Made by a program: the position numbers and the translations under genes. DNA of 64,000 bases from Arthrobacter woluwensis (GTDB lineage: Bacteria > Actinomycetota > Actinomycetes > Actinomycetales > Micrococcaceae): assembly GCF_030816155.1 (NCBI RefSeq), contig NZ_JAUSXR010000001.1:434001-498000 (forward strand). Direction: 5' to 3'. Under the pieces are notes generated by a model. That model worked only from the letters and a program-made list of their open reading frames with translations, did no database searches and was not told the origin of the DNA. Below, one piece after another: positions 3,007 to 59,036 of this stretch. Positions within the stretch are counted from its first letter, which is position 1. Each line of letters begins with the position of its first letter.

Positions 3007-3013
3007 GGGGCCC

Positions 3014-3133
3014 GGCCTGGGGAGTGGGATCAGCGGAAGCTTGCGTAAAGGGGCCCCCGCAGCCCCTTGCACAGCGAAAGCCGAGTACCTCGCTGCGGGG
3101 ATAGCAAGCGGAGCTGATCCTGCTCCCCGGGCC
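3014..3133 (+). repeat. Structured intergenic element, copy A (covaries with 58901-59017)
   Basis: This folds as a long bulged hairpin. The outer stem is 3014-3024 with 3123-3133; a 2x2 TG/TG loop follows. The second stem is 3027-3034 with 3113-3120, and an asymmetric GGAA/GGA loop follows. The third stem is GCTTGC 3039-3044 with GCAAGC 3104-3109. Next comes an internal loop GTAAA plus GGGG facing ATA, and an inner stem 3055-3063 with 3092-3100. CCCC at 3063-3066 could pair with GGGG 3050-3053 as a pseudoknot. Core bases match copy B while the outer stems differ in sequence but still pair. It lies between convergent genes. Function unknown. Confidence 0.7.
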
Positions 3134-27523: not shown

Positions 27524-27542
27524 AGTTATCGTGTCCCTTCAT

Positions 27543-27647
27543 CGGCAGGTACGTGCCGAACGATCCGTAGTGAATGGTGAGTATTCAGTTGTCATGAAAG
27601 TGCGGGGTCCTCCGGCCGGGCCGAGCCCTGCCACGTGGATCCCGCAC
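27543..27647 (-). promoter_or_regulatory. Hairpin-bearing 5' leader of the sugar ATPase gene
   Basis: In the 160-bp gap to otsB the minus strand can form an 11-bp stem (27637-27647 with 27600-27610, one mismatch) enclosing a GC-rich loop, then a small stem (CGGCA with TGCCG, 27543-27558) close to the start codon. An msiK RNA motif is known upstream of such genes in Actinobacteria. I cannot confirm from memory that this leader matches its consensus. Confidence 0.35.
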
Positions 27648-31474: not shown

Positions 31475-31485
31475 CGTCGCACCCT

Positions 31486-31552
31486 GAGTCCGCTGTCGAG
31501 GTGGTGAATCCGTTACATCTGATAGCGGATTCACCACCTCGACAGCGGACTC
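31486..31552. repeat. Perfect 27-bp inverted repeat with 13-base loop
   Basis: Left arm 31486-31512 is the exact reverse complement of 31526-31552. Pairing can extend three further pairs including one G-T, leaving a loop of about 7 bases. It sits 11 bases after the tRNA terminator and about 60 bases before the mgtA promoter. No coding frame or transposase is present. It may be a second terminator or insulator, or a mobile REP-like palindrome. Confidence 0.85.
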
Positions 31553-31614
31553 GGCGGGTGGGGCGGGGCCAGCGCGGTCCGGCGCCTCGTCACTCACGTC
31601 ACCCCCACCCCGAA

Positions 31615-31643: not shown

Positions 31644-31654
31644 GAAAAGGCAGC

Positions 31655-31828
31655 GCTTCGTTAGGCGAGGTTCCTGCACGAATACAGGCCACTGATCTGA
31701 CGACGTCGAGAGACGCCCAAGGTTAGGACAGGTCCTCCCGGATTAAGGGTTGACCCAAAGTGGCTTCCGGTTGCCGAGGGCAGCGGATACGTCGTGCAGT
31801 GCCAAAGCTCTTACGTGGAGGCGACTAC
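31655..31828 (+). promoter_or_regulatory. M-box (ykoK) magnesium riboswitch
   Basis: The conserved M-box segments appear in order: CTTCGTTAGGCGAGGTTCCTG near 31656, AGAGACGCCCAAGG near 31710, GGTTGACCCAAAGTGGCTTC near 31748, and the 3' block GTGCAGTGCCAAAGCTCTTA near 31795. These match the family that binds several Mg2+ ions and lowers expression of Mg2+ transporters when Mg2+ is ample. It lies in the mgtA leader, 380 bases before the mgtA start, so an upstream ORF and alternative stem-loops separate aptamer and gene. Confidence 0.93.
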
Positions 31829-57139: not shown

Positions 57140-57318
57140 TGTGGGACCTGAGAGATTCCGCGGGCTGAAGGGGCCCGCTTGCACCGTCGGTGAGCCCGGC
57201 GGACCGGGCTGCTTTCCAGAGTTGCCTCGCCGCGGCGGTACGGGTGCCTGAGAGATTCCCGGGGAGGGTTTGCTCCTACGGCGCCTGCCCGGGGTGCCGG
57301 GAGGTCTCTCCCGCCGCG
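57140..57318 (-). promoter_or_regulatory. Tandem glycine riboswitch
   Basis: Reading the minus strand, aptamer 1 begins GCGGGAGAGACC at 57318, has GCGCCGTAGGAGCAA in its core and closes with GGAATCTCTCAGGC. Aptamer 2 follows with CAACTCTGGAAAGC, ACCGACGGTGCAAGC and again GGAATCTCTCAGG, ending near 57140. The double ATCTCTCAGG 3' signature and two aptamers in series are diagnostic. It should switch on the gcvH-glyA genes when glycine is abundant. Confidence 0.95.
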
Positions 57319-57332
57319 GATCAACAGCGTCC

Positions 57333-58818: not shown

Positions 58819-58838
58819 CAGCAGGCTGACGGAACGAC

Positions 58839-58873
58839 GACGGCGCCGCACCCTCCCGGGGTGCGGCGCCGTC
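58839..58873 (+). terminator. Terminator hairpin after dps
   Basis: GACGGCGCCGCACC (58839-58852) pairs perfectly with 58860-58873 around CTCCCGG. Confidence 0.85.
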
Positions 58874-58900
58874 ATCGTGTCTGAGCTCCACATTACCGCG

Positions 58901-59017
58901 CGGGTTCGGCTACTGATCCGTGGCAGCTTGCGTAAAGGGGCCCCGCGCCCCGCCAGCGGCGTGAGCATTCAACTCCGCGCGGGGATAGCAAGCAGAACGG
59001 ATCAGCAGCCGAACCCG
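58901..59017 (+). repeat. Structured intergenic element, copy B (covaries with 3014-3133)
   Basis: The outer stem CGGGTTCGGC (58901-58910) pairs with 59008-59017; a 2x2 TA/CA loop follows. CTGATCCGT (58913-58921) pairs with 58997-59005, and a GGCA/AGA asymmetric loop follows. GCTTGC (58926-58931) pairs with GCAAGC (58988-58993). An internal loop GTAAA plus GGGG faces ATA, and an inner stem runs 58941-58948 with 58977-58984. CCCC at 58948-58951 can reach GGGG 58937-58940. The core is identical to copy A and the outer helices are rewritten but still perfectly paired. It lies between dps (+) and the permease gene (-). Confidence 0.7.
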
Positions 59018-59036
59018 GGCTCCGGTCCCAGGCGGC

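Follow-up and report, generated by a model that had tools for sequence, protein, structure and literature searches.

MITEs of the ERIC and NEMIS type are hairpin-forming, intergenic elements of about 100-130 bp whose terminal repeats are common to the copies, and the attC sites of integrons are folded single strands with variable stem sequence and conserved unpaired bases. The element described here, two copies of which (A and B) lie in one stretch of Arthrobacter woluwensis DNA, is like the former in size, hairpin and location. It has 5-bp direct repeats at both A and B, but its arms are unshared between copies and differ at almost every site, and no autonomous element was found. It is like the latter in joining variable stems to conserved loops, although by eye no integrase was recognised beside its copies, nor was a reverse transcriptase of the retron kind.

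REPs are described in one published account as lying between convergent and unidirectional genes, in pairs of opposite orientation, sometimes in genes and sometimes within palindromes (PMC3733652). The class of REP, BIME and REPIN (GTAG-tagged and mobilised by RAYT, or TnpA_REP) is alike in its dispersed intergenic palindromes, its presence or absence and its inverted pairs. Our element, however, is longer (122-134 nt where measured, against 20-40 bp), has arms that are free in sequence and near-constant in length, and amounts in its full form to 1-7 copies per genome where found. Just 1 of 19 copies of the genus has GTAG or CTAC in a 16-nt stretch across its arm ends, no REP tag being conserved, and the Y1_Tnp domain (PF01797) was found in 0 of 20 genomes of the two genera that carry the element, controls being positive in 5 of 14; nor was any transposase recognised by eye beside the copies. 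Membership of the REP/RAYT class was rejected on tag and Y1 transposase, though the behaviour is alike. A match to a REP or BIME family, which the preliminary description of this DNA had named as a finding that would refute it, thus exists in behaviour and not in tag or transposase. The same account describes CGTC-tagged repeats as having no dedicated transposase, stems of 8-9 bp, loops of 4-5 nt and an unpaired end tag, and units of the CGTC or RPE kind as lying inside protein genes (PMC3733652). In-frame units in protein genes are found here too, by way of a minimal relative of the element, but the stems are of 20-21 and 6 bp and there is no unpaired CGTC end tag; where CGTC does occur, as in the GTCAAGGGG copies and the minimal form, it stands at the inner end of the 6-bp helix.

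The open-licence literature yielded no mention of GCTTGCGTAAAGGGG or TAAGCGAGGAACGAGCGAG and, on Arthrobacter REP, MITE and intergenic repeats, nothing on this hairpin family. Palindromes as such are already in print in the part of the RepRanger report that gives counts of REP-like palindromes for Arthrobacter livingstonensis (PMC12306157). The family looks to be a small mobile palindrome of a kind not seen before in Actinobacteria, and no RAYT was found for it.

Copies, fold and distribution

The window, by which we mean the whole 64,000-nucleotide stretch analysed, comprises bases 434001-498000 of a 3.51-Mb genome. Copy A (3014..3133, + strand) lies between a barstar gene (PF01337, +) and a convergent gene on the - strand, for which a Pfam search gave no match, and copy B (58901..59017, +) between a ferritin-like gene (PF00210, +), which by eye we take to be dps, and a convergent amino-acid permease gene (-). 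Here and below gene names were assigned by eye, apart from the Pfam-matched genes flanking A and B. The preliminary description, drawn from the letters alone, had reported two structured copies at these positions with shared blocks, each after a plus-strand gene and before a convergent one; both the copies with their blocks and the gene arrangement are confirmed, and the two-copy observation is real.

In copy A the outer arms, site-specific in sequence and 21 nt long on the 5' side (3014..3034), close with 3113..3133, both on the + strand. Inwards follow GGAA (3035..3038), the 5' half of an asymmetric GGNN/RGA loop of which GGA at 3110-3112 is the 3' half, then the middle helix, in which GCTTGC (3039..3044) pairs with GCAAGC (3104-3109), then a second loop with GTAAAGGGG (3045..3053) on its 5' and ATA (3101-3103) on its 3' side, and finally a variable inner hairpin CCCC...GGGG (3054..3100). 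Copy B likewise has arms of 21 nt at 58901..58921 and of matching position at 58997..59017, enclosing a core (58922..58996, +) of GGCA, GCTTGC, GTAAAGGGG, inner hairpin, ATA, GCAAGC and AGA. Direct repeats flank both: GGGCC at 3008..3012 and 3129..3133, the right one overlapping the end of the 3' arm, and GCTCC at 58885..58889 and 59019..59023, 11 nt before the 5' and 1 nt after the 3' arm. The unit, outer arms included, measures 122 nt at A and about 134 nt at B. A separate terminator-like hairpin of dps (58834..58877) is kept in all four genomes compared, and the element is therefore not the only terminator-like hairpin of dps.

Both copies fold far below shuffled sequences: A as read reaches -77.9 kcal/mol (z -7.1) and B -69.2 kcal/mol (z -6.6), energies attained by 0 of 200 shuffles in either case. 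On the reverse strand the values are -70.9 and -76.0 kcal/mol, so that A folds better as read and B better reversed, and single copies disagree on the strand. A descriptor of the structure, made up of GGVN, the 6-bp helix, RGA and an outer arm and run over both strands of the window, matches A and B alone, against 0.05 matches per 64 kb in 20 mononucleotide shuffles scanned on one strand each.

In general the fold consists, from the outside in, of a 20-21 bp outer helix, the GGNN/RGA loop, a 6-bp GNNNGC/GCNNNC helix, the GTMAAGGGG/AWA loop, a CCCC/GGGG inner helix and a variable tip. Two details of the first account do not survive: copy A is predicted to form 21 continuous outer pairs in place of a 2x2 internal loop, B having one mismatch, and the proposed GGGG/CCCC pseudoknot is not general, the second CCCC being missing in the copy at 1,033,587 and in the locus-4 copies of genomes G000 and G047. 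Similarly, a GNRA-like apical loop was discarded as a general feature; several copies of the genus have one and those of the second genus do not. The outer helix differs in sequence at almost every site and the arms still pair. Pairing dips to about 0.6-0.75 inside the arm and falls near its end, from 0.74 at position 21 to 0.32 at position 22 in 19 copies of the genus; for 66 other scanned copies the values are 0.62 at position 20, 0.35 at position 21 and 0.26 at position 22 (a repeat of the count with genus copies removed, some having been mixed in earlier). Since this drop near position 21 occurs whatever the sequence, the boundary is set by length and not by sequence. Short-loop hairpins as such are common in the window: counting those in coding sequence there are 47, and their stems run from 13 to 34 bp.

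A third copy was found by exact pattern, a fourth by BLAST and a fifth, facing away from the fourth, by reading that locus; these five made up covariance model R1, which matches copy A, one of its own source sequences, with E 4.8e-17. The covariance-model search of family genomes that had been proposed as a check did bring up more copies: R1 places seven, dispersed, in this genome and finds 5, 6 and 1 in the three remaining genus genomes, further listings there being the reverse strand of the same places. Of 197 family genomes, which span 32 genera, a second model, R2, matches 12 in two genera, and of 347 order genomes, spanning 105 genera, it matches 6, again in those two; both draws had stricter filters that lose weak matches; no model match came from other genera among the order genomes sampled. 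Related copies thus occur in all four genus genomes and in a second genus of the family. Of 59 genomes around G009, 34 contain a looser motif (33 belong to the second genus), and part of these matches are due to chance, because controls with the reversed pattern were not empty. The exact pattern matches this genome alone among 295 family genomes and one locus, in Arthrobacter horti, among named genomes, and is too strict to gauge distribution; in viral contigs it had 0 matches. An origin from plasmid or phage was considered and nothing was found for it besides one 23-bp match to a Streptomyces plasmid (E 0.08).

Over the whole window Rfam (release 15) gave no match to the element at or above the gathering threshold, in keeping with the earlier statement that it resembles no known riboswitch or ribozyme family; at lax thresholds (E up to 5), six loci yielded just microRNA models at chance level (E 3.5-4.9), overlapping one copy (L016). 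What Rfam does place in the window are a glycine riboswitch (57226-57323, -), an M-box riboswitch (31650-31827, +) and an msiK RNA (27527-27585, -). At 31482-31555, after a tRNA-Thr and another hairpin and before the M-box riboswitch, there is a 34-bp stem with a 7-nt loop.

Paired changes and the question of the strand

That the outer helices change and remain paired was proposed from two copies and extends to 19 distinct copies of the genus. In their alignment (A4, 25 rows, fitted to the structure, loci mixed, pair counts leaning towards the fitted model) both sides have changed in 18 of 25 pairs, 96.6% of cells pair against 72.6% in shuffles, and the covariation score is 0.66 against 0.17 in shuffles and at most 0.11 in slid structures. 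At one orthologous locus, dcp-pdxS of the second genus, 36 distinct copies have both sides changed in 14 of 25 pairs, a count that leans the same way in alignment A5 of 38 loci picked for holding the core; the score there is 0.42 against 0.16 and is reached by 0 of 500 shuffles, the two counts (pairs and types) being reached by 3 and 8 of 500. Alignments A6-A9 are plain MAFFT (A6 and A7 with 27 of the 38 loci, A8 and A9 with all 19 genus copies), and from these RNAalifold recovers the three helices in both genera, 16 of 23 predicted pairs in the genus alignment being changed on both sides. The interpretation first offered therefore stands in so far as the element is real and its compensatory changes exceed shuffled and slid controls, whereas a self-contained RNA like a riboswitch or ribozyme is not supported. 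Covariation among dispersed copies, even when strong, does not by itself imply a regulatory RNA.

Whether the selected form is RNA or hairpin DNA had been left open, and in the window's genus the strands are indeed indistinguishable: RNAalifold gives -43.04 kcal/mol as read and -42.13 reversed for the 19 copies, so that neither strand is preferred. For the second genus, with 27 of its 38 copies aligned, the corresponding values are -29.97 and -17.67. G-U pairs stand to A-C as 58 to 14 in A5, nine of the 14 coming from one probably misaligned column pair, and as 7 to 3 in A4, where G-U is rare (7 of 475 cells). In arms from outside the genus the ratio is 55 to 4 at positions 1-8, a stretch where the scans, which admit only perfect middle helices and give G-U an advantage over A-C, bias the G-U count, and 64 to 32 at positions 9-20; in genus arms, whose first 8 positions are subject to the same bias, it is 6 to 1 at positions 1-11 and 4 to 8 at 12-20. 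Because RNAalifold energies and G-U/A-C counts agree, a strand-specific fold is supported for the second genus only. Two copies, L091 and L094, with GCGTGC/GCGCGC, give hints of G-U intermediates on one strand.

Presence, core exchange and competing readings

Copy A is precisely absent from G047, which reads TGA and then GGGCCACG, the whole hairpin with GGGCC on both sides being present in G000 and G019; the element-free sister genome has a single GGGCC there. In G071 the contig ends before the site, and the comparison of empty and filled sites is that of G000, G019 and G047. Copy B is absent from G047, G019 and G071, in which dps is 98, 98 and 84% identical and the dps hairpin remains. At the empty sites of A and B, the only two intergenic sites with usable empty counterparts, the arms are missing along with the core, and the element is thus a unit present or absent as a whole.

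Cores were compared within six orthologous loci whose flanks are 87-98% identical: of 16 same-locus pairs, 7 keep the core (0.85-0.99) and in 9 it is replaced (0.62-0.74, the level of unrelated loci). At locus 4 of G019 the core is 0.88 identical to the locus-6 core of G000 and the arms are like those of G047 at locus 4, while at locus 5, between G000 and G047, the outermost 15 bp are kept and all inside has changed on both sides. Exchange between loci has affected the cores and left the arms in place.

In the second genus the core pattern finds the core in 38 of 65 dcp-pdxS regions, a relaxed scan in 35 of 65. One core-free region, L146, holds an apparent remnant of the 3' arm, which implies that loss also happens and that presence or absence can be loss. 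Exact target duplications at dcp-pdxS had to be given up, the flanks being too diverged. In several of these regions (for example L089, L098 and L102) the dcp stop is followed, ahead of the terminator-like hairpin of dcp, by a second hairpin repeat with a core like GTCGTTTTGAGCCC...AAAACGAC and varying arms (CATCGATTGCTCCGTA..., CAAGTAGGTAGCGCTAAG...), the core pattern of which is absent from the window. The core of L124, L134, L150 and L157 contains, or is replaced by, another kind of repeat, about 85 nt long (GTTCGACTGCTTCTCCACA...GGCGCC...CTGCAGTCTCTCTTA...), which occurs in both orientations.

Copies are found between convergent genes (A, B and locus 4), in co-directional intervals and as divergent pairs, such as ald-[-][+]-ABC-F in this genome and aceB-[-][+]-aceA in L066 (names by eye). 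Both orientations occur, and in every divergent pair one copy lies antisense to the adjoining gene, which argues against a simple mRNA signal. That the outer helix is the gene's own terminator is unlikely at dps and dcp, which have separate hairpins.

Given presence and absence, core exchange, both orientations, divergent pairs and in-frame minimal relatives, we consider the element probably to be a non-autonomous mobile palindromic repeat family of Arthrobacter (Micrococcaceae). The machinery copying or moving it would recognise the folded strand by its loops and 6-bp helix, irrespective of the arm sequence; the recognised form would be a single strand, and selection on the fold would come from recognition by a putative mobilising enzyme. 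Where copies are tolerated at the 3' ends of genes, they are probably transcribed and may have a side effect on the ends of the mRNAs. Several points count against this mobile reading: no moving enzyme was found (no Y1_Tnp in 20 genomes, no transposase by eye beside the copies), presence or absence can reflect loss, usable empty counterparts exist for two intergenic sites only, copies of an active transposon would be expected to share their arms, and those of this family do not, and the strand evidence is confined to the second genus.

The alternative that carries most weight with us, though we think it unlikely, is a cis-acting structured RNA of mRNA 3' ends, copied to several operons and kept by selection, which might serve processing or protection, for instance as a 21-bp stem with asymmetric loop cut by RNase III, or act as terminator or antiterminator. 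The strand preference in the second genus, the sense orientation of A, B and several other copies 3' of a gene, the retention of the same loci across species (dcp-pdxS and aceA-aceB, names by eye) and an outer stem of about two helical turns would all fit such an RNA. They have to be set against the want of strand preference in the window's genus, neighbours that share no class and in divergent pairs include one facing an antisense copy, the clean absence of A and B in sisters, the separate terminator-like hairpins of dps and dcp, and relatives lying in frame within coding sequence. If, on the other hand, the structure mattered at the level of DNA only, template switching in palindromes keeping the arms complementary with no selection on a single-stranded fold, both strands should fold alike, as they do in the window's genus, where G-U is also rare and falls below A-C in the distal arms; that paired changes come in blocks would likewise be expected. 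This we regard as quite improbable, given the conserved unpaired loops, the excess of G-U over A-C in the core and proximal arm of the second genus (even if the scans favour G-U), the end of pairing at about 21 bp, and arbitrary new arms, which need more than the copying of one arm onto the other.

Very doubtful in our estimation is the proposal that the arms are ordinary host terminator palindromes into whose loops a small mobile core was inserted. REPs inside palindromes are indeed described (PMC3733652), at locus 5 the inside was swapped within a kept outer 15 bp, and long short-loop hairpins abound in the window; but the empty sites of A and B lack arms as well as core, coding copies also have arms of about 20 bp, and beside the element dps and dcp each possess a hairpin of their own. 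That two hairpins are alike merely by chance has nothing in its favour except a GC-rich genome and is practically negligible in view of the further copies, fold z-scores, covariation and descriptor control.

We know of no nameable kind of element that explains arms of near-constant length and free sequence changing together. With little confidence we suggest a molecular ruler of about 21 bp, or two helical turns, by which the arms would be defined through length and complementarity, their sequence being re-made at each site by the copying step; the element would then rewrite its own inverted repeats, and the cores would be exchangeable cassettes. The puzzle is a testable one: how both arms can change together while flanking genes stay about 93-98% identical.

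Minimal, nested and in-frame relatives

The family appears to include relatives that insert in frame into genes, carry hairpins within hairpins and trade cores. R2 also matches the shorter L038, L042, L043 and L044 (E 1.6e-6 to 2e-5), and eight minimal forms found by scanning agree with the full form in outer arms, GGMA/RGA loop and 6-bp helix, which in several surround a loop of the type GTCNAAGSGAGG-CGASCGA. Their shared loops and the E-values of the model suggest that minimal and full form belong to one family. Fifteen further loci have the minimal-form loop, 8 fitting the whole descriptor and 7 with a changed or missing outer GGNN/RGA loop; a locus of the latter kind lies in this genome at 424425-424449, 9.6 kb before the window. 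The minimal-loop pattern occurs in 21 of 197 genomes and 10 of 32 genera, its reversed control matching in at least 13 genomes, and single long-gap matches outside the two genera are read as chance.

The copy at L048 is of the L046 type, its loop lengthened by 56 nt that make up a further hairpin. At L048, L146 and G086:C29:228011-228054 a nested hairpin GGGCCCACGCC...GGTGGGG is seen inside other hairpins, in one case in an arm of the second family.

Coding copies at five loci (L181, L182, L203, L042 and L043) have imperfect arms of about 20 bp, the genes with in-frame copies being those of a P1-peptidase and a copper-ATPase (named by eye and partly by search); at L181 GSVRLSEERASTPR is in frame. 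In the P1-peptidase linker P0012 differs from P0043, P0046 and P0066 by exactly 22 residues, and a stretch similar to the linker insert is carried by P0003 and not by P0004. Of the 120 best among 7009 homologues 6 were unparsed; the linkers of the other 114, sorted by regular expression, comprise 50 with the minimal insert, 12 with the nested form, 13 of PSAR type, 8 of KLNQ type and 31 with none of these inserts. The P1-peptidase linker (P0001-P0120) is a hot spot with at least three kinds of in-frame insert: the minimal form, the PSARSVVPP type and the KLNQR type.
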